Positions 1 through 20,678 of a DNA stretch of 34,287 nucleotides are shown piece by piece. Position numbers and translations under genes: made by a program. Origin of the DNA: Candidatus Aenigmatarchaeota archaeon. GTDB taxonomy: Archaea; Aenigmatarchaeota; Aenigmatarchaeia; QMZP01; JAFGSV01. The number at the start of each line of letters is the position of its first letter. Within the stretch, counting starts at the first letter, position 1. The DNA is taken from assembly GCA_021163005.1 (NCBI GenBank), contig JAGGXP010000006.1, forward strand, positions 1-34,287, read 5' to 3'. The notes under the pieces were generated by a model. The model had not been told where the DNA came from and made no database searches. It was given only the letters and a program-made list of their open reading frames with translations.

Positions 1-77
1 ACAGGAACGCAATATGACGACTTGAACAGAATGAACAGGTCGTCCTTAAAAGGTATGGACAAAGCAGGCTTTAGGCA
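1..77 (+). repeat. 77-bp repeat shared by two tRNA T-loop introns (copy 1)
   Basis: Matches 9738-9814 at 76 of 77 positions (one C/T difference at 60). It contains the inverted pair GACGAC/GTCGTC (about 16-44) and ends in an AAAGC-AG-GCTTT mini-palindrome (61-72). It may extend left of the window. Confidence 0.9.
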
Positions 78-228
78 ATTCACAAACAGACGGCTAACAA
101 AGATGAACAAAGCCTAATCGAACAGGACGCACACCGCCTGTATACACAGAATGGACAAAGCAGGCTCGGACAGCAACGCAAGATGACGGCTAACGCAGGG
201 TGAGCAAAGCCGTCTTTAAGCCCATCTG

Positions 229-250
229 CCCCCTTAAAGCATTATTCCCC
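229..250 (+). repeat. 22-bp repeat, copy 1 of 3
   Basis: CCCCCTTAAAGC followed by ATTATTCCCC, identical to 9643-9664 and 9821-9842. With the preceding CATCTG, 223-250 is identical to 9815-9842 over 28 bases. All copies lie in tRNA T-loop introns. Confidence 0.9.
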
Positions 251-317
251 AACCAATAAGAAAACGAACAGGAATATGCAAAGCTGGGAATCCCCTCCGG
301 TCCATTGAGGTGAAAAA

Positions 318-9387: not shown

Positions 9388-9445
9388 GTTTTTAAACCAA
9401 ATACAGCTAATACTGAAACAGGCGGGGGTACCCGAGTCTGGCCAA

Positions 9446-9492
9446 ATTAAACTGGCAGCTTGGGTCTTCGGCTCAGGCTGCCGGAAGGCCAA
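9446..9492 (+). other. BHB intron, tRNA-Leu D-loop (47 nt)
   Basis: Central helix GGCC/GGCC, bulges AAA and AAA, with inner helix ending in GGCAGC/GCTGCC. Cutting after the second base of each bulge joins TGGCCAA to AGGGGCAGG, a normal leucine D-loop. Confidence 0.88.
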
Positions 9493-9508
9493 AGGGGCAG
9501 GACTTAAG

Positions 9509-9556
9509 ATTGGGTTCTTAAGTGCTGATTCCGAGATGATGGAGTCCCGATGGGTC
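9509..9556 (+). other. BHB intron, tRNA-Leu anticodon loop 37/38 (48 nt)
   Basis: Canonical position. Central helix CTTA/TGGG (two G-U pairs), bulges AGA and TCA, inner helix TTGGG/CCCGA. Joining gives anticodon loop CTTAAGA closed by CAGGA/TCCTG. Confidence 0.88.
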
Positions 9557-9642
9557 ATCCTGTAGCTCAGTGCTTTCGCAGGTTCAAAGGCTCAAGGGGG
9601 TCAACGGCAGCTCACCACGCAGTTGGTGAAACCGCTTGCACG

Positions 9643-9664
9643 CCCCCTTAAAGCATTATTCCCC
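9643..9664 (+). repeat. 22-bp repeat, copy 2 of 3
   Basis: Identical to 229-250 and 9821-9842. Its CCCCCTT pairs with AAGGGGG at 9594-9600 within the intron. Confidence 0.9.
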
Positions 9665-9737
9665 ATGAACAGGGAGATGCAGAGGCGGACAGGAACGCAA
9701 TCCGCCTGCATGAACATAACGGACAAAGAATAATCGA

Positions 9738-9814
9738 ACAGGAACGCAATATGACGACTTGAACAGAATGAACAGGTCGTCCTTAAAAGGTATGGATAAA
9801 GCAGGCTTTAGGCA
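9738..9814 (+). repeat. 77-bp repeat, copy 2
   Basis: Differs from 1-77 at one position. Followed directly by the 28-base match 9815-9842 that occurs at 223-250 in the other intron. Confidence 0.92.
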
Positions 9815-9820
9815 CATCTG

Positions 9821-9842
9821 CCCCCTTAAAGCATTATTCCCC
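9821..9842 (+). repeat. 22-bp repeat, copy 3 of 3
   Basis: Identical to the copies at 229-250 and 9643-9664. Confidence 0.9.
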
Positions 9843-10110
9843 GGTAACAAAGAAAGGAGAGGATGGGGAAAGAGGAATGGTGCACAGGTTCCCCAGTAAC
9901 AATGAAGAAGGAAAGGGGAATCAGGACAGCAGCGGAAAGCCGCAAAGGTCGTGCAGGTCGCACGGCTCGAACAGTCGAACAGCAACGCAAGCTGACGACA
10001 TGCACAGAATGGACAAAGCCGTCTTTAAAAAGCATGGACAAAGCCGTCTTTAAGCACGTTCCCGCGGTTAAGTGAGCTGAGAATCCTGCCCCCCGCATCA
10101 TTGTGATGGC

Positions 10111-10694: not shown

Positions 10695-10725
10695 CTTTCA
10701 CCCATCCGCACACCTGCGGAAGCGT
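10695..10725 (-). other. BHB intron, tRNA-His T-loop 59/60 (31 nt)
   Basis: Central helix TTCA/TGAA, bulges AAA and AGT. Joining restores CCGAG-TTCAAAT-CTCGG. Confidence 0.85.
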
Positions 10726-11609: not shown

Positions 11610-11975
11610 ATTCCGGTTGATCCTGCCGGAGGTCATTGCTATCCGAATCCGACTAAGCCATGCAAGTCTTGGTGTTCATCTTTGGACACTAGGGCGGAAA
11701 GCTCAGTAACACGTAGTTAACATGCCCTCAAGTCTGGGATAATCTCGGGAAACTGAGGCTAATACCAGATAGATAAAAGATACTGGAATGTTCTTTTATC
11801 CAAAGATTTATCGCTTGAGGATTGGACTGCGCCGGATTAGGTTGTTGTGAAGGTAAAATCTTCCCAAGCCGATAATCCGTACGGGCCTTGAGAGAGGAAG
11901 CCCGGAGATGGATTCTGAGACAAGAATCCAGGTCCTACGGGACGCAGCAGGCGCGAAACTTTCCCAATGCACGAA

Positions 11976-12034
11976 CCCTTTTCGGTGTGAGCATACAAAA
12001 GCGTTCACGGAAAATCATACCGAATAGGCGTGAA
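11976..12034 (+). other. BHB mini-intron 1 of 16S (59 nt, module family)
   Basis: Central helix CACG/CGTG, bulges AAC and AAA, long inner helix CCTTTTCGGTGTG/CATACCGAATAGG. Joining rebuilds the h15 hairpin GCAC-GAAA-GTGT. It contains the shared module CCCTTTT, hairpin, AAAAGCGTTCACGGAAAA. Confidence 0.85.
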
Positions 12035-12309
12035 AGTGTGAGGAAGGGATTCGGAGTGCATTCTCTTATAAAGGGGATGCTTTTGTGGAGTGTAAAAAGC
12101 TTCACGAATAAGTGGTGGGTAAGACGGGTGCCAGCCGCCGCGGTAATACCCGCGCCACGAGTGATGACCACGTTTATTGGGCTTAAAGCGTTCGTAGCCG
12201 GCCCAGAAAGTCCTTAGTGAAATCCCGCAGCTAACTGTGGGGCTTGCTAGGGAAACTGCTGGGCTTGGGACCGGGAGAGGTCTGGGGTACTCAAGGGGTA
12301 GGGGTAAAA

Positions 12310-12370
12310 CCCTTTTGCGCATGAGACAAGCAAAAGCGTTTACGGAAAACATATGCGCACTTGGTTACAT
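12310..12370 (+). other. BHB mini-intron 2 of 16S (61 nt, module family)
   Basis: Lies in the 690 loop. Central helix GTAA/TTAC, bulges AAC and ATT. Joining gives GGGGTAAAA-TCCTGTAATCC, the archaeal consensus. The module is CCCTTTTGC, loop, GCAAAAGCGTTTACGGAAAA. Confidence 0.88.
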
Positions 12371-12467
12371 TCCTGTAATCCTTTGGGGACCACCGGTGGC
12401 GAAGGCGCCAGACCAGAACGGATCCGACGGTGAGGGACGAAAGCTAGGGGAGCAAAGGGGATTAGAT

Positions 12468-12535
12468 TGACCCTTTTTACGGGAGCTGACGCTTCCACAA
12501 AAGCGTCAACGGAAAATGTAAAAATGGTCCTAAAA
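12468..12535 (+). other. BHB mini-intron 3 of 16S (68 nt, module family)
   Basis: Splits the universal GATTAGAT/ACCC block (E. coli about 793). Central helix TTAG/CTAA, bulges ATT and AAA, inner helix GACC/GGTC, outer GGGG/CCCC. The interior contains CCCTTTTT and AAAAGCGTCAACGGAAAA. Confidence 0.92.
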
Positions 12536-12623
12536 ACCCCCGTAGTCCTAGCTGTAAACGATGCCCACTAGACATTGGCAATCTCACGGGGGTTGTCAGT
12601 GCCGTAGCGAAAGCGTTAAGTGG

Positions 12624-12654
<31 letters not shown>

Positions 12655-12732
12655 TACATGACTGCTTATACTGAGCAATTACTGCTTGGCTAATGAAGCA
12701 GTAGCTGAACAGAGTAAGCAGTCGGTCGGCAA
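12655..12732 (+). other. BHB intron 4 of 16S (78 nt, no module)
   Basis: Splits GGCTGAA/ACTTAAGG at E. coli about 908, a site known for archaeal introns. Central helix GCTG/CGGC, bulges AAT and AAA, inner helix GACTGC/GCAGTC, outer AAG/CTT. The interior has its own ACTGCTT/GAAGCAGT hairpin and lacks the shared module. Confidence 0.9.
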
Positions 12733-13127
12733 ACTTAAGGGAATTGGCGGGGGAGCACACAAGGGGTGGAGGCTGCGGTTTAATTGGATTCAACGCCGGG
12801 AACCTTACCAGAGGCGACAGCAGAGTGAAGGTCCGCTTGAAGAGCGTACCAGACGCGCTGAGAAGTGGTGCATGGCCGTCGTCAGTTCGTGTCGTGAGAT
12901 GTCCACTTAAGTGTGGTAACGAACAAGACCCGCGCTTCATGTTGCTATCGTATATTTCGGTATGCGAGCACTCATGAGGGACCGCTGGCGATAAGCCAGA
13001 GGAAGGTGCGGTCGACGGCAGGTCTGTATGCTCTGAATCCTCTGGGTTACACGCGGCCTACAATGACCGGGACAATGAGATGCGACACCGAAAGGTGAAG
13101 CCAATCTCGAAACCCGGCCTCAGTTCA

Positions 13128-13158
<31 letters not shown>

Positions 13159-13186
13159 CGAAATCCCTAGTAGTCGCTGGTTAGCA

Positions 13187-13257
13187 AGAGCCTTTTTACA
13201 AGAGCCTGAGAGCTTCTGCAAAAAGCCTCGGGAAAAAATGTAGAAAGATTCCTAAAC
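13187..13257 (+). other. BHB mini-intron 5 of 16S (71 nt, diverged module)
   Basis: Lies in the h43 loop. Outer helix CGCTGG/CTAGCG, central TTAG/CTAA, bulges CAA and ACT. Joining gives GGTTAGCA-TCTAGCGGCG. The interior CCTTTTTAC, hairpin, AAAAAGCCTCGGGAAAAA is a diverged version of the shared module. Confidence 0.85.
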
Positions 13258-13383
13258 TCTAGCGGCGAATACGTTCCTGCTCCTTGCACACACTGCCCGT
13301 CAAGCCATCTGAGTGGATCCTTGGTGAGGCTTTCTTATTTTGGGAAAGTCGAGCCAGGGTTCTGCAAGGAGGGCTAAGTCGTA

Positions 13384-13493
13384 AAGCGTAGAGACGGGCA
13401 ATATGATCGGGGAAACCCGAGATGACTTATATTGTGTGCGCTTTGGAACTTCAAAGAGCACATAGTATAGACTATCGTCTCTATGCTCGACAA
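13384..13493 (+). other. BHB intron 6 of 16S (110 nt, no module)
   Basis: Splits AAGTCGTA/ACAAGG (E. coli about 1499), beside the decoding-site strand of h44. Central helix GTCG/CGAC, bulges TAA and AAA, inner helix AGCGTAGAGACG/CGTCTCTATGCT. No shared module. Confidence 0.92.
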
Positions 13494-13677: not shown

Positions 13678-13715
13678 ACACAGCCTTTTTTTGCGCTTGT
13701 GAGGCTGTATGAAAA
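13678..13715 (+). other. BHB intron, tRNA-Ala T-loop 59/60 (38 nt)
   Basis: Central helix TTCA/TGAA, bulges AAA and AAT, inner ACAGCC/GGCTGT. Joining gives GTGGG-TTCAAAT-CCCAC. Confidence 0.9.
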
Positions 13716-13729
13716 TCCCACCCGGTCCA

Positions 13730-14033
13730 TCCTGGAAGCTTTATAAAAGCTTCCTGGCATATGTATAATGCTTGATAACGCTACTCAGAGTCGGTCATTT
13801 TTCCGGAAGCGGAAGTGGTCGGTAGCGGAAACGTGGAAGACCATGGTATCTGATTCTGTGTAGCGCTTCAAGGAGATGAAGCTCTCCGTCAATGATGGAG
13901 GGCGGAAAAGAGTGGAGTAATGAAATAAATTGGTAAAATCCGAGGCAAAGCCCGCTTGCGCTGGCAGCCGTTGAGGATGTGAACACCATATGAGCTCCGT
14001 GATGATTTCATAGGCGATTCGTCCCGACTAAAC
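13730..14033 (+). other. tRNA-Ala/23S spacer
   Basis: No gene seen. Just after the tRNA is a perfect hairpin GGAAGCTTT-ATA-AAAGCTTCC (13734-13754), which also contains a TATA-like core and could be a processing stem or internal promoter. GATTCGTCCC (14016-14025) pairs with GGGACGAATC (18284-18293) as the pre-23S processing stem. Confidence 0.6.
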
Positions 14034-14899
14034 AGGGTCAAGTACACTGTATGGTGGATGGCTTGGCTCGGGTAGCGATGAAGAGTGTGGCAAGCTGCAT
14101 TAATCCGGGGGTAGGCGCATGCAGCCCTTGAACCCCGGGTTCTTGAATGAGACTTCTCATCTCTTCGGAGATAATCCGTAAGGATTGCGGACGCGGTGAA
14201 CTGAAACATCTTAGTAGCCGCAGGAAAAGAAAGAAACCTCGATTCCCTTAGTAAAGGCGATTGAAAAGGGAACAGGACAAACCGAATCCCTTCCGAGAGG
14301 AAAGGGAGATGTGGGGTTTGGACTTGGGCTTGACTTAACCACAAGACCTGAAGTCTGCTGGAAAGCAGCGCTATAGAGGGTGACAGCCCCGTAGGGGAAC
14401 TGTGGAAAGTCAATACCAAGTATCCAGAGTAGCGTTCTTTGGATATGGAGCGTGAATGTGGGAGGCAATAGCTCCCAATCCTAAATATAACCCGAGACCG
14501 ATAGCGAACTAGTACCGTGAGGGAAAGCTGAAAAGTATCCTTGACAGGAGCTGAAAAGAACCTGAAGCCATACAGTCACAGGTAGATACGGCATGTTTAA
14601 TCCCTTCAAAGGCAACGAGAAGGGTGTAAGTGTTGTATCGTACGTTTAGAAACACGCGACAAGGAGTTTATCTCTGTGGCGAACCGGTTAACAAAGGCAA
14701 CCGTAGCGAAAGCAAAGCATGCGCAGCAGGTTCGTCCTGTGAGGCATGTGGGTGTGAAAGCGCCCCAAGTCACAGGGATAAGACCCGAAGCCGGTCGATC
14801 TAGTCCTGGATAGAGTGAAGCCTTGCGAAAGCAGGGTGGAGGCTCGCTACCGAAACTCAGTCACAAATGGTTCGGGTGATCTGGGACTAGGGGTGAAAA

Positions 14900-14945
14900 T
14901 GATACGACAGTATGCTTTTATGGATAAAGCTGTCATGTCTTCAAA
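14900..14945 (+). other. BHB intron 1 of 23S (46 nt)
   Basis: Central helix TGAA/TTCA, bulges AAT and AAG. Joining gives GGGGTGAAAA-GCCAATCG, a universal domain II segment (E. coli about 810). Confidence 0.88.
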
Positions 14946-15053
14946 GCCAATCGAGTCCGGCAATAGCGGGTTCCTTCCGAAATGAGTCTTAGCTCAGCCT
15001 CGCCAGAGACTGGCAAGAGGGTAGAGATACTGACTGGATAACCAAGGGGAGAA

Positions 15054-15091
15054 AAGTGTGACGACTGAAATACCGGTCGTCCGTTCTCATT
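15054..15091 (+). other. possible relaxed BHB intron of 23S (38 nt)
   Basis: Inner helix GACGACTG/CGGTCGTC with AGTG/CGTT. Central helix GGAG/CTCA holds only three pairs; bulges AAA and TTC. Removal would leave a GGGG-AGAA-CCCC hairpin. This region of 23S varies in length, so a simple helix extension is equally possible. Confidence 0.4.
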
Positions 15092-15596
15092 CCCCAGTTG
15101 TCCTGCCAAACTCCGAATCTTTTGCCGTCGCAGAAGGCGGGAGTGAGGGAACGGGGTAAGCTCGTTTTCCGAGAGGGAGAGAACCCAGACTGGGGTTAAG
15201 GTCCCAAAAAGACTGACTGCATGCAAAGCGAAATGCATGCTTTGTTCATCAGGCAGTCATTTCTTGTTGGATGCAAGCGGTCTTGGAATACTTGCTAAGT
15301 GAGGAAGAGTGTTTCTGACCACAGACAGTGGGGAAGTAGGCTCAGAAGCAGCCATCCTTTAAAGAGTGCGTAATAGCTCACCCACCAAGGTCAGGAGCCT
15401 TGAAAATGGACGGGGCTAAGCAAGTTACCGATACCCCAGACCTCGAAAGAGGGGGTAGGAAGGTGTTTTGCGGGAGCAGAAATCTGTTCGTAAGTTCAGG
15501 TGGATCCCGTAAAAACAAGAATCTTGTCGATAGTAACAGCAAAGCTGGGTAAGAAACTCAGCCGCCTGAAGGGCTAGGGTTCCTCAGCAATGATAA

Positions 15597-15641
15597 AAGG
15601 TTGACGATTTGGGCAATTACATGTAGTCGTCTCCTGTCAAT
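15597..15641 (+). other. BHB intron 2 of 23S (45 nt)
   Basis: Central helix TGAT/GTCA, bulges AAA and ATT, inner AGG/CCT then GACGA/TCGTC. Joining gives CAATGATAA-TCAACTGAGGG, close to the archaeal consensus. Confidence 0.82.
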
Positions 15642-16090
15642 TCAACTGAGGGTTAGCCGATCCTAAGGTATATCCTAACTGGAGTATACCGAAAGGGAAG
15701 GGGGTTAATATTCCTCCGCTATGAAAGTACGTGCGGCGACGCAAGCTGTGCTGGTGATGCTGTGGGATAGGTCAACCACGCAAGTGGCTAACGGCCGAAG
15801 CCTGGGGAGTATCTTTATGATGAGAACCAGGTGAAGACCGGAATGGCACCTGTATGGGTGTTTAGCCGATTCCCAGAGCCACTGAAAAACCAGCATAGAA
15901 GGACCTTTCATAATCGTACCGAGAACCGTCACTGGTGTCCCTCCCTGAAAAGGGGAAGGCGTGTTGGGACAATTCAGTTCAGGGAATTAGGCAAATTAGT
16001 CCTGTATCTTTGGTATAAGGGATGCCTACTGTCCCGACCAAGTTGGGAACAGTAGGTCGCAGTGACAAGGGGGGTCCGACTGTTTAACAA

Positions 16091-16224
16091 ATGGAGAGAT
16101 TAGCAATTATGCTTATCTTTTCCGTGCTGCAGTCGGACAAAAATGAAAAATTCAAAGCTACGGGCAGACAGTTAGTACGGAAGAACATTTAATAGATTCG
16201 TAAAATACGTTCTCTCCAGTTAAA
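16091..16224 (+). other. BHB intron 3 of 23S (134 nt)
   Basis: Domain IV. Central helix TAAC/GTTA, bulges AAA and AAA, perfect inner helix TGGAGAGA/TCTCTCCA. Joining gives TTTAACAA-AAACG, the universal segment. The intron carries CAGTCGGAC (16130-16138), the exact complement of 5' exon GTCCGACTG (16074-16082). Confidence 0.9.
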
Positions 16225-16356
16225 AAACGTAGGGGGCTGCCAGCCCGAAAGGGTTCGTATAGCTCCTGAGGTCTGTCCAGTGCCGGTCGGTGAAAGCCTT
16301 TTTCAAGAGGCCTAAGCCCCGGTAAACGACGGCGGTAACTCTGACCGTCTTAAGGT

Positions 16357-17031
16357 GACTGCGTTGCCTTAATAAAATCTGGCCATATGCTGGAACGTCC
16401 GAGTATCCTACACTACCGGAATTATTTAAGGTTTATACCTTAATATTCAGGTGACAATGTGATAGGTGCGGATAATCAGCAGGAAAGGTTAGATACTTCC
16501 TGGATATCAGGTTTTGTCGATGGAGAAGGTTGCTTCTACGTTGGTATAAATAAGATAAATAAAATGACTCTTGGATGGCAGGTCCTTCCGGAGTTCAGGA
16601 TTGTTCAGCATAAAAATGATGAGCAAATCCTGCATAAAATAAAATCTTATTTCCAATTCGGAAGCATTCGGATTAATCATGGAGACCGAATGGAGTTCAG
16701 AGTGAGGGGACTCGAAAATCTTAACAAAATTGTTTCGTTTTTCAAAAACAGTCCTCTCCAAACCAAGAAAAGAAAGGACTTTGAACTTTTTTCCAGTGTT
16801 ATTGAAATGATGAACCAAAAAGAACATCTGACAAAACAAGGACTTCAACAGATAGCAAAAATTGTATCCAGAATGAACCATAAAGTAGAACCGAAGTATC
16901 TAAAATCCCCAGAGACTATACGCCAGACATCCGAAAGGATGAAGATATAGTCCGAACCTCATAGCGATATGAGGAGGTTATCAGAAATGATAACCCGCCT
17001 CCTTTTTGGAGGTCAGAAAAGTAACAGATTG
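16357..17031 (+). mobile_element. group I intron in 23S with homing endonuclease gene (675 nt)
   Basis: Splits CTTAAGGT/AGCGTAATCCC, the conserved site of known group I introns (E. coli about 1923). The exon end TTAAGGT pairs with the internal guide GCCTTAA (16365-16371), giving the U-G pair at the 5' splice site (P1). The intron ends in G (17031). Core elements AGAGACTATACG (16912-16923) and AAGATATAGTCC (16941-16952) match the R and S strands that form P7. P8 lies between them. The splicing chemistry is self-splicing, unlike the BHB introns around it. Confidence 0.9.
16459..16950 (+). CDS. LAGLIDADG homing endonuclease
   Basis: A 163-residue single-motif LAGLIDADG endonuclease: SWISGFVDGEGCFYVGIN at residues 14-31 carries the helix and catalytic acidic residue, and the C-terminal half contains NHKVEPKYLKSPETIRQ. 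One motif means it should act as a homodimer and cut the intronless 23S allele to spread the intron. The start is GTG at 16459 preceded by AGGTGA. The last codons encode part of the intron core and the TAG stop lies inside the S element, so protein and ribozyme constrain each other. Confidence 0.92.
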   Translation: MIGADNQQERLDTSWISGFVDGEGCFYVGINKINKMTLGWQVLPEFRIVQHKNDEQILHKIKSYFQFGSIRINHGDRMEFRVRGLENLNKIVSFFKNSPLQTKKRKDFELFSSVIEMMNQKEHLTKQGLQQIAKIVSRMNHKVEPKYLKSPETIRQTSERMKI

Positions 17032-17447
17032 AGCGTAATCCCTTGCCGATTAATTGTCGGCCTGCATGAATGGCTTAACGAGATCCCCGCTGTCCCGAAC
17101 TGAATCCCAGTGAAATAACTTGTCCTGTGCATAAGCAGGAGTCATCCAGTGGGATGAGAAGACCCCGTAGAACTTTACTGCAGCCTGATGCTGTGGTATG
17201 GTGACGAATGCATAGTGTAGGTGGGAGCGTTGTGTATGTTCTCTTGGGAGCATATGAAGCGACAATGTAACACCACCCTTTCGTTACTATACTGCTTACC
17301 CTTCGGGGAACACCATCAGGTGGGCAGTTTGACTGGGGCGGTACGCCTCTGATAAAATATCAGAGGCGCCCTAAGGTCGGCTCACCGTGGTCAGAAATCA
17401 CGGGAAGAGTGTAAGGGCAAAAGCCGGCCTGACAGGTTCCTTGACAA

Positions 17448-17558
17448 AAACCCTTTGGCACACGTAAACGTGCCAAAGCGTTTGCGGAAAGTCCGCTACC
17501 GCGAAAGCGCTGTCAAAAGCGCCTTGGCGTTTGCTGTGGAAGTTTCCGCGTTGTTACA
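17448..17558 (+). other. BHB intron 4 of 23S (111 nt, module family)
   Basis: Domain V. Outer helix GGTTCCT/GGGAACC, central TGAC/GTTA, bulges AAA and CAA, short inner AAC/GTT. Joining gives TTCCTTGACAA-AGGGAACC. The module is CCCTTTGGCAC, loop, GTGCCAAAGCGTTTGCGGAAA, extended by a second hairpin closed by GCGGAAA/TTTCCGC. Confidence 0.85.
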
Positions 17559-17674
17559 AGGGAACCTGGCGCGAAAGCGTGGCCTAGCGATCCCCTGTGT
17601 CCTCACTATTGGGGGCCAGGTGTGTCAGAAAAGCTACCTCGGGGATAATGGAGTGGTGGCGGGCAAGAGTTCAT

Positions 17675-17723
17675 TAACCCTTTCTTGAAAAGAAAGCCTT
17701 AACGGAAAGAAGGGTTTGAGCAA
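17675..17723 (+). other. BHB intron 5 of 23S (49 nt, module family)
   Basis: H89 strand of the peptidyl transferase region. Central helix GTTC/GAGC, bulges ATT and AAA, inner AACCC/GGGTT (one extra T). Joining gives GAGTTCAT-ATCGACC, identical to the universal sequence. Shortest module copy: CCCTTTCTT, GAA, AAGAAAGCCTTAACGGAAA. Confidence 0.85.
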
Positions 17724-17780
17724 ATCGACCCCGCGCGTTGCTTCTCCGCCGTCGGCTCGGCTCCTCCTGGGCGTGCAGCA

Positions 17781-17851
17781 TAACCCTTTAGCACATGTAA
17801 ACATGCTAAAGCGTTAACGGAAAAACCGCTAGCGCATTAGAGGTTCTGTAA
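17781..17851 (+). other. BHB intron 6 of 23S (71 nt, module family)
   Basis: H91 loop. Central helix GCAG/CTGT, bulges CAT and AAG, inner AACC/GGTT. Joining gives GGGCGTGCAGCA-GCGCCCAAGGG. The module is CCCTTTAGC, loop, GCTAAAGCGTTAACGGAAAA. Confidence 0.9.
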
Positions 17852-18065
17852 GCGCCCAAGGGTGGGGGTGTTCACCCATCAAAGAGCCACGTTAGCTGGG
17901 TTAAGTACGGTGCGAGCCAGTACGGTCTATATCTACTGGATGTGCGGACGAACTGAGGGGAAAATGCGTCAAGTACGAAAGGAACGGCGCGTTGTGGCCT
18001 CTGGTGTATCAGTCGTGTATGCGTTGCTGAGTAGCTACGCCATTGAGGATAAGGGCTGAAAGCAT

Positions 18066-18109
18066 ACAGTCTGACGGCGAAGCTATATGCCGCTGTCTTA
18101 CTGGCTTAA
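18066..18109 (+). other. BHB intron 7 of 23S (44 nt)
   Basis: Domain VI. Central helix AAGC/GCTT, bulges ATA and AAC, inner CAGT/ACTG. Joining gives GGCTGAAAGCAT-CTAAGCCC, the universal segment. Confidence 0.9.
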
Positions 18110-18301
18110 CTAAGCCCGAAGCCTCTCCTGAAAAGAGTTCGTCATTTTCCAATCTGACTGGCGACCGTCAGGGCGGGAACGAGGGCCCGGTAGACTACCG
18201 GTTTGATAGGGCCGGGGTGTAAGTATCAAGGCAACGAGATATTCAGCCCACGGCTACTAAACGCCCGAGTGACCCTGGTCAAAGGGACGAATCGCCTTTT
18301 C

Positions 18302-20097: not shown

Positions 20098-20224
20098 CAT
20101 TCTGCGATATTCATTTTGCGCGAGCCGGGAAGGTGGCTTCGCCCGTGCGGAAAACGCGCAATGCACTTTCCGCCTGCATTGGTCTGGCAACAGATGCATG
20201 CTGGCTGGACTTGCGTCAGCGCAC

Positions 20225-20303
20225 TTTCCGCGAATGCTTTGCCTGTATAACACAGGTACATGCAGAAGCGGATTTTCCGCGAATGCTTTGCCTGTATAAC
20301 AGG
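20225..20303 (+). repeat. direct repeat pair within RNase P RNA P3
   Basis: TTTCCGCGAATGCTTTGCC followed by TGTATAACA occurs at 20225-20255 and again at 20274-20303, differing by a two-base insertion. Each is an inverted-orientation relative of the module (complement AAAGCATTCGCGGAAA). Confidence 0.85.
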
Positions 20304-20333
20304 TTTGCTGCAGCGGAATGGTGCGTCAGCGTA

Positions 20334-20375
20334 CTTTCCGCCAGCGCTTTAGCACGTTTACGTGTGCTAAAGGGC
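20334..20375 (-). repeat. full inverted copy of the rRNA mini-intron module
   Basis: Read on the minus strand: AGCCCTTTAGCACACG, TAAACGTGCTAAAGCG, then CTGGCGGAAAG. It nearly matches the modules at 17449-17490 and 17782-17825, including the loop ACGTAAAC. Confidence 0.85.
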
Positions 20376-20678
20376 TGTGGGTGAGGAAGTTCCACACACT
20401 CCGGATTTATCCGAAAACGCGCTGCCGAAAGGCAGTGGCTGAGAAGCCAGCGCGCTGCACAGAAATAAACCATGCGGCAATGAGCAATGAAACGCGAAAG
20501 AGCTGTGAATGCCGCAGAGGGTGAAATAGCGGCCGACGCGGGGTGCAAATCTTGGATGCTGAGACAGATGCCACCGCCTCCGTTCACCGTAACAGGTGAG
20601 GAGACGACAGAAAGTGGGCTATTCCCGGCAAGCGCTTTATATTTAAACGGAACGCCAAGTATAAACAGGTGAGTGTAA

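Follow-up and report, generated by a model that had tools for sequence, protein, structure and literature searches.

The window (the whole stretch of DNA analysed, 34,287 nt) is contig C23 of a 945-kb, 91%-complete MAG of an uncultured Aenigmatarchaeota archaeon (G000). The nearest named relative, Candidatus Aenigmatarchaeota MAG JAFGFG01, belongs to the same genus, and its TrpRS is 85% identical to that of G000. The TrpRS gene lies immediately 5' of a tRNA-Leu(UAA) gene, an adjacency that also holds for the orthologues in congeneric genomes. This tRNA gene contains three introns:

9422-10097, plus strand: tRNA-Leu(UAA) gene, with exons 9422-9445, 9493-9508, 9557-9588 and 10084-10097
9446-9492, plus strand: D-loop intron of 47 nt with a relaxed bulge-helix-bulge (BHB), central helix GGCC/GGCC; lacking in G003 and G001, both congeneric
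9509-9556, plus strand: anticodon-loop intron of 48 nt at the canonical position 37/38, H helix CTTA/TGGG; conserved in G003
9589-10083, plus strand: T-loop intron of 495 nt, family A, with a perfect BHB
9578-9594, plus strand: 5' half of this BHB (T-stem GCAGG, central helix TTCA, bulge AAG, inner helix GCTCA)
10073-10089, plus strand: 3' half of this BHB (inner TGAGC, central TGAG, bulge AAT, T-stem CCTGC)

The acceptor strands GCGGGGG (9422-9428) and CCCCCGC (10090-10096) and the T-stem strands GCAGG (9578-9582) and CCTGC (10085-10089) pair across the T-loop intron. At its ends, a 4-bp central helix (TTCA 9583-9586 with TGAG 10078-10081) is flanked by bulges of 3 nt each (AAG 9587-9589, AAT 10082-10084), the inner helix is formed by GCTCA (9590-9594) and TGAGC (10073-10077), and the last exon comprises only 14 nt (10084-10097). 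Removal of all three introns leaves an intact 86-nt class II tRNA with anticodon UAA and every stem complete, GCGGGGGTACCCGAGTCTGGCCAAAGGGGCAGGACTTAAGATCCTGTAGCTCAGTGCTTTCGCAGGTTCAAATCCTGCCCCCCGCA. The original prediction of three introns, a 495-nt T-loop intron with its BHB elements and a 14-nt last exon was correct base for base. Folding with the cloverleaf and BHB enforced gave -194.7 kcal/mol, compared to a free minimum of -198.7 kcal/mol. The claimed fit of the distant exon was upheld as well. A pattern of 3' splice site, T-stem and acceptor (G-U allowed) matched the window once, at the right place, compared to 0.033 matches per 34 kb in dinucleotide shuffles; the distant last exon of tRNA-Leu(UAA) is no chance match. 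We conclude that, judged by its sequence, the 495-nt segment is a real, properly bounded archaeal BHB intron, which would be spliced as such. Its size is as unusual as had been suspected, being almost four times the maximum in a 2011 survey, whose stated figures for archaeal tRNA introns are 11-129 nt with a median of 15 (PMC3218864).

The locus at 9422-10097 is the sole one for Leu(UAA) in the 91%-complete assembly, where a search for a second, intronless tRNA-Leu(UAA), as the original prediction had proposed, found none. The gene was missed by ARAGORN and by an Rfam search, as expected for introns of this kind, and no Rfam covariance model of a group I or group II catalytic core matched it. 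A homing-endonuclease intron was rejected as a candidate: the longest ORF in the 495-nt intron encodes 109 aa on the minus strand and has no Pfam match.

Interior of the 495-nt intron

The intron interior contains the following repeated modules:

9642-9664, plus strand: module GCCCCCTTAAAGCATTATTCCCC, copy 1, which closes the first hairpin with AAGGGGG at 9594-9600
9686-9734, plus strand: 49-bp module M1, first copy, with a partly degenerate stem
9735-9784, plus strand: M1, second copy, hairpin GACGAC/GTCGTC
9820-9842, plus strand: module GCCCCCTTAAAGCATTATTCCCC, copy 2
9976-10053, plus strand: M1, third copy plus a tandem partial copy, with ATGGACAAAGCCGTCTTTAA twice
10024-10031, plus strand: TATA-like TTTAAAAA in the M1 tail (in 495 nt, chance alone would give 0.4 such sites)

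Repeated modules had been predicted and were found, but the single long stem of the prediction gave way to many hairpins when the intron was folded (z = -3.7). M1 consists of a conserved lead, CGAACAGNAACGCA, a 6-bp stem and a conserved 18-nt loop. In an alignment of 14 copies, from which 29-nt hairpin variants were left out, the stem is paired in 98.8% of cells and shows 12 double changes compared to 3.9 in shuffles (0 of 500 shuffles reached this number); sliding the partner strand destroyed the pairing. This covariation implies that the M1 hairpin is preserved, as RNA or as single-stranded DNA.

A BLAST search of G000 with the intron placed its parts at ≈14 further sites, most of them in or beside tRNA genes. 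The suggestion that the intron is a landing site for repeats was supported: its modules recur in the flanks of tRNAs, in one cluster between genes, and in at least six further complete tRNA genes, whose T-loop introns contain them. Among 60 relatives searched for the intron modules, only two stray matches of 26-29 nt appeared. The exact family A module had no match among named genomes, and three module patterns searched in IMG/VR for a viral carrier had none there.

T-loop introns elsewhere in the genome

A strict scan that requires an acceptor, T-stem, BHB helix and inner helix gave 16 hits in 130 kb of G000 compared to none in the reversed sequence. A relaxed scan, read gene by gene, yielded 21 complete introns at the same T-loop site, a lower bound, as tRNA genes were gathered from targeted stretches of G000. 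Their lengths are 31, 38, 42, 44, 48, 51, 95, 109, 109, 115, 152, 155, 163, 166, 176, 199, 220, 277, 328, 495 and 500 nt. The total rises to ≈25 by eye with the addition of tRNA-Thr (C4), tRNA-Ser(GCU) (C24), a tRNA-Ala half and tRNA-Arg(UCU) (C35), and the T-loop site is in use in most tRNA genes examined in G000. Besides the Leu(UAA) intron, the window contains three of these features:

1-304, plus strand: 3' part of a family A T-loop intron (1-290) and the last exon, probably of tRNA-Ala (291-304); the 5' half is on another contig
10695-10725, minus strand: 31-nt T-loop intron of tRNA-His(GUG) (gene from 10825 to ≈10680); the T-loop of the G003 orthologue is empty
13678-13715, plus strand: 38-nt T-loop intron of tRNA-Ala (gene from 13572 to ≈13731) in the 16S-23S spacer

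Most T-loop introns fall into three sequence groups, and 40 pairs are similar at E ≤ 1e-3. Family A, which starts with GGCTCAAGGGGG or a close variant, occupies seven complete tRNAs, namely Leu(UAA), the tRNA at C14:4030, one on C25, Ser on C28 and on C4, Gly on C26 and Ala on C15. Family B starts with GCACCCTTT and occupies six complete tRNAs, and family C has the form AACCCTTTT..AAAAGCGTTNACGGAAAA. Homologous introns thereby occupy non-orthologous tRNA genes of one genome, the mark of a transposed intron family. The original prediction had overlooked that the Leu(UAA) intron has such relatives. At C4:10400-10720, the anticodon intron of tRNA-Thr(UGU), a gene that carries a T-loop intron besides, is made of a 40-bp hairpin unit repeated in tandem about four times.

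Orthologous tRNA genes in related genomes

We scanned continuous stretches of 323 kb of G003 and 278 kb of G001 and read the identities of orthologous tRNAs by eye from the anticodon. A comparison with relatives had been suggested, and it was informative at the Leu(UAA) T-loop, which holds 495 nt in G000, an unrelated 70-nt intron in G003 and nothing in G001. The Gly(GCC) T-loop intron likewise measures 176 nt in G000 and 69 nt in G003 and is lacking in G001, where the T-loop of tRNA-Ile is empty as well. In two further genes, the intron is longer in G000 than in G003: 328 compared to 64 nt in Leu(CAG), and 109 compared to 48 nt in a tRNA-Leu on C13. Seven more sites are empty in G003 and filled in G000, in the tRNA at C14:4030 (500 nt), Ser(CGA) (220 nt), Asp (166 nt), Glu (163 nt), Arg(GCG) (51 nt), Ala (38 nt) and His (31 nt). 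In G002, tRNA-Asp has a T-loop intron, too.

The anticodon intron of Leu(UAA) is kept in G003 and the T-loop sites differ, which on these sequences makes the T-loop introns the fast-changing part of the tRNA genes. A different T-loop intron of ≈70 nt is common to several tRNAs (Leu, Gly, Ser and Asp) in G003 and G002, and its copies in two G003 Leu genes are 99% identical; thus, the G003 and G002 species have a multicopy T-loop intron of their own. Across species, the pattern resembles what concerted evolution would leave, or the re-invasion of a single site time after time. The T-loop introns of the G000 lineage appear to be recent gains, where the polarity (gain or loss) rests on two or three congeneric genomes.

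Hairpin core in rRNA genes and tRNA flanks

A hairpin core, composed of RACCCTTTT, a variable stem-loop and AAAAGCGTTNRCGGAAAA, extends beyond the T-loop introns. At up to two mismatches, we counted 45 copies in G000 (0 in the control, which was the reversed pattern), 33 in G019 (control 0), 22 in G011 (control 5) and 21 in G003 (control 2); for pairing, ≈33 real copies were counted. Judged by location, the majority are found within the introns of stable RNA genes or flank such genes: in 16S and 23S, in anticodon introns of Thr and Val, in T-loop introns and immediately next to tRNAs, on the 5' or the 3' side. Related hairpins occur in anticodon, D-loop and rRNA introns and in tRNA flanks. Other families of the order have multiple copies of the core as well; at the loci examined there, it lies in introns of tRNA-Leu-type genes, in the D-loop, the variable arm and the T-loop. 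Family A and the core have a common layout (a closing helix, then a GCAGC-TTAC-GC-TGC loop), which suggests that family A may descend from the core. Tentatively, the core might represent a separate type of non-coding mobile element in this order, a transposable BHB mini-intron found almost only in and around stable RNA genes, which would survive through splicing by the host endonuclease and, through nesting and tandem growth, build introns as long as 500 nt; we regard this wider proposal as possible, and somewhat doubtful.

The 16S (11610-13407) and 23S (14030-18280) genes in the window contain many short insertions, several with the hairpin core; five are in 16S relative to G001. Three of the 16S insertions carry the core in the form AACCCTTTT..AAAAGCGTTCACGGAAAA and are absent from 16S of G001 and G003:

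11974-12033, plus strand: 16S insertion with hairpin core
12314-12362 (ends approximate), plus strand: 16S insertion with hairpin core
12468-12535, plus strand: 16S insertion with hairpin core

One 23S insertion contains an ORF (16459-16950) that matches LAGLIDADG_1 (E = 2.2e-26). On the minus strand at ≈20100-20420 of the window, related hairpin repeats (CCCTTTAGCACACGTAAACGTGCTAAAGCGCTGGCGGAAAG and others) form a cluster between genes, next to which no tRNA was recognised.

Duplicated pieces of tRNA accompany the repeats at several loci. At C3:21560-21735, an intact tRNA-Lys is preceded by two units in tandem, both of which combine a 15-nt 5' fragment of tRNA-Lys (GGGCCTGTAGCTCAG) with a hairpin; the 5' end of the tRNA is complementary to the unit tail, GTACAGGC. 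The tail of a tRNA-Ile unit on C29, GTACGGGC, matches the 5' end of that same tRNA-Ile. On C25, C21 and C13, 3' ends of tRNAs are duplicated together with repeat units.

Splicing endonuclease and candidate mobility gene

G000 encodes a 398-aa, three-unit EndA of the epsilon2 type (C14:27270-28466), which matches the ARMAN-2 EndA (PDB 4fz2) over its length at E = 1.4e-87, and a separate 188-aa alpha-type splicing-endonuclease protein (C1:4385-4951). The ARMAN-type (epsilon2) endonuclease is known for a broad substrate range (PMC4033280, PMC12397907), and the G000 enzyme is predicted to accept non-canonical sites. The presence of this type in the lineage fits the idea that a permissive enzyme lets introns accumulate. 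The 91%-complete genome contains neither a reverse transcriptase domain (RVT_1) nor a Y1 (HUH) transposase (PF01797, Y1_Tnp). A free-standing LAGLIDADG_3 ORF of 179 aa (C19:33752-34291) lies in AT-rich DNA between an intron-bearing tRNA and tRNA-Glu and would be no more than a speculative candidate for the mobility enzyme.

Proposed origin and growth of the intron

We interpret the direct observations (gene anatomy, BHB, intron family, empty orthologous sites, covarying stems and endonuclease gene) as follows: with a probability of roughly 80%, the 495-nt segment is a host-spliced BHB T-loop intron that has been enlarged by accretion of a lineage-specific hairpin family spreading at the DNA level. 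The host splicing endonuclease would remove the intron, and the host ligase would restore tRNA-Leu(UAA). The T-loop would act as a universal acceptor for which one design of intron ends fits all tRNAs: TTCRAAT and the 5-bp T-stem are nearly the same in every tRNA, which would make T-loop sites especially permissive, and an intron starting G-GCUCA and ending UGAGC-UGRR-AA would bring everything else that a BHB needs. The set of T-loop introns would have spread over more than 20 tRNA genes of this species, presumably without benefit to the host, and the Leu(UAA) intron would have reached 495 nt by collecting copies of short hairpin repeats. Copying at the DNA level, by recombination or gene conversion between tRNA loci, is most likely, because copies lie outside tRNA genes, in tandem arrays and with duplicated fragments of tRNA ends, and because the genome, as far as assembled, encodes neither of the two mobility domains sought.

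Alternatively, excised introns could reverse-splice into the T-loops of other pre-tRNAs through the endonuclease and ligase and then be copied into DNA. The tRNA insertions sit precisely at loop positions that form a BHB, and BHB cleavage is reversible in principle. However, selection explains these exact positions, too, since misplaced insertions would kill the tRNA. Transposition through RNA is unlikely given the missing RVT_1 domain, the copies upstream and downstream of tRNAs, in tandem arrays and in the tRNA-less intergenic cluster, and the tRNA fragments duplicated with some hairpins.

Another reading is that the intron carries a functional small RNA, so that its length is under selection. 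Box C/D RNAs in tRNA-Trp introns are an analogue of such cargo, and both the significant folding and the covarying stems of the modules would suit this reading. We consider it very unlikely, as covariation is equally expected of selfish hairpins, module content varies between introns and is absent from the congeneric orthologues, and no Rfam family matched the intron at the curated cut-off and none of meaning at a relaxed one. The earlier suggestion of a small-RNA cargo was therefore not borne out: a box C/D RNA was rejected for want of a C box, a protein for want of any ORF with a Pfam match, and a sub-threshold Rfam match to a viral element (E = 0.059) was attributed to chance.

The 495 nt might instead contain a promoter for separate transcription of the last exon, which would then be joined to the rest in trans, making an adjacent split tRNA for which PMC3218864, in its account of Aeropyrum pernix tRNA-Asp, provides a precedent. 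The original prediction had raised a step toward a split tRNA, and the TATA-like octamer, which lies 60 nt upstream of that exon and rivals the best tRNA promoters of G000, gives this some weight. By contrast, the octamer belongs to a repeat module and is of a kind expected 0.4 times by chance, there are no long complementary half-leaders (the ends are closed only by the ≈5-bp inner helix of the BHB), and in G003 the orthologous introns at this site, with their 64-70 nt, have little room for a promoter and argue for graded growth in cis (from 70 to 495 nt and from 64 to 328 nt). We regard a split tRNA as highly improbable.

Least credible of all is a pseudogene or a chimeric contig made by repeats: repeats do break contigs here, but the longest exact repeat that the intron has with other sequence examined from G000 is 88 nt, shorter than the 127-nt overlap of contig ends described below, which makes chimeric assembly unlikely, and every helix of tRNA-Leu(UAA) is intact, the assembly holds no other Leu(UAA) gene and an independent 500-nt T-loop intron occurs on contig C14. 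The broken contig is the window itself, whose positions 1-127 overlap exactly with the end of contig C24 inside a T-loop intron; the 5' half of tRNA-Ser(GCU) on C24 is mismatched to the Ala-type 3' half at the window start, which implies that the intron repeat is what broke the assembly.

Relation to known introns and repeats

The gain of archaeal tRNA introns is an old open question; at one extreme of the proposals, introns are ancient scars left when tRNAs were assembled, and at the other they result from recent transposition. Here, one genus shows the same tRNA without a T-loop intron, with one of 70 nt and with one of 495 nt, and a hairpin family that has apparently invaded more than 20 tRNA genes and the rRNA genes of one organism recently. 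With such graded states within a genus and many gains apparently on one branch, gain, spread and growth can be followed directly.

Non-canonical BHB introns of archaeal tRNAs, as outlined by Marck and Grosjean (2003) and in a review (PMC4090602), include T-loop positions near 59/60 and number up to three per tRNA. The introns described here share the BHB motif, the EndA substrate geometry and the T-loop position, but reach 495-500 nt, are built of repeats and use the T-loop site in most tRNAs examined. Transposed introns of the Thermoproteales type (2010, as cited in PMC4033280 and PMC4090602) resemble them in that similar introns occur in different tRNA genes of one genome and were gained recently; in contrast, the present introns are from Aenigmatarchaeota, prefer one site (the T-loop), grow by hairpin accretion and have a related hairpin core in rRNA introns and tRNA flanks. 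In Caldiarchaeum, a tRNA-Thr intron and a tRNA fragment are attributed to a mobile element (PMC3293823). That case likewise combines intron gain with duplicated tRNA 5' fragments and dispersed repeats, whereas in G000 many genes and small hairpin repeats are involved and no integrase-like ORF was seen at the loci. Most tRNA genes of Atabeyarchaeia and Freyarchaeia, as in G000, have introns, often several and non-canonical, according to the passages of PMC11291895 on these groups, in which we found no description of intron length, shared repeats or a T-loop preference. REP/RAYT palindromic repeats are also short multicopy hairpins with covarying stems, but the G000 hairpins are concentrated in and around stable RNA genes, and that genome lacks the Y1 transposase.

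Earlier work already covers tRNA introns that are non-canonical or multiple, their transposition, and tRNA sets rich in introns (PMC4090602, PMC4033280, PMC8450103, PMC11291895). The size of ≈500 nt, the use of one site across most tRNAs examined and the construction from covarying hairpins with a core in rRNA introns were not found described in the open-access literature as far as its texts cover such introns, and we do not claim that they are unreported.

tRNA gene recognition and identities

ARAGORN reported no tRNA in the window, which contains at least three complete tRNA genes, so that genomes of this kind will be scored as tRNA-less. The tRNA-Leu gene at C13:10443-10703 has the anticodon loop CTAAGGA, with AAG at positions 34-36, and its G003 orthologue is identical there. 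AAG at these positions of a tRNA-Leu is unusual for archaea. Part of its 3' exon occurs again after the gene, accompanied by a repeat unit.
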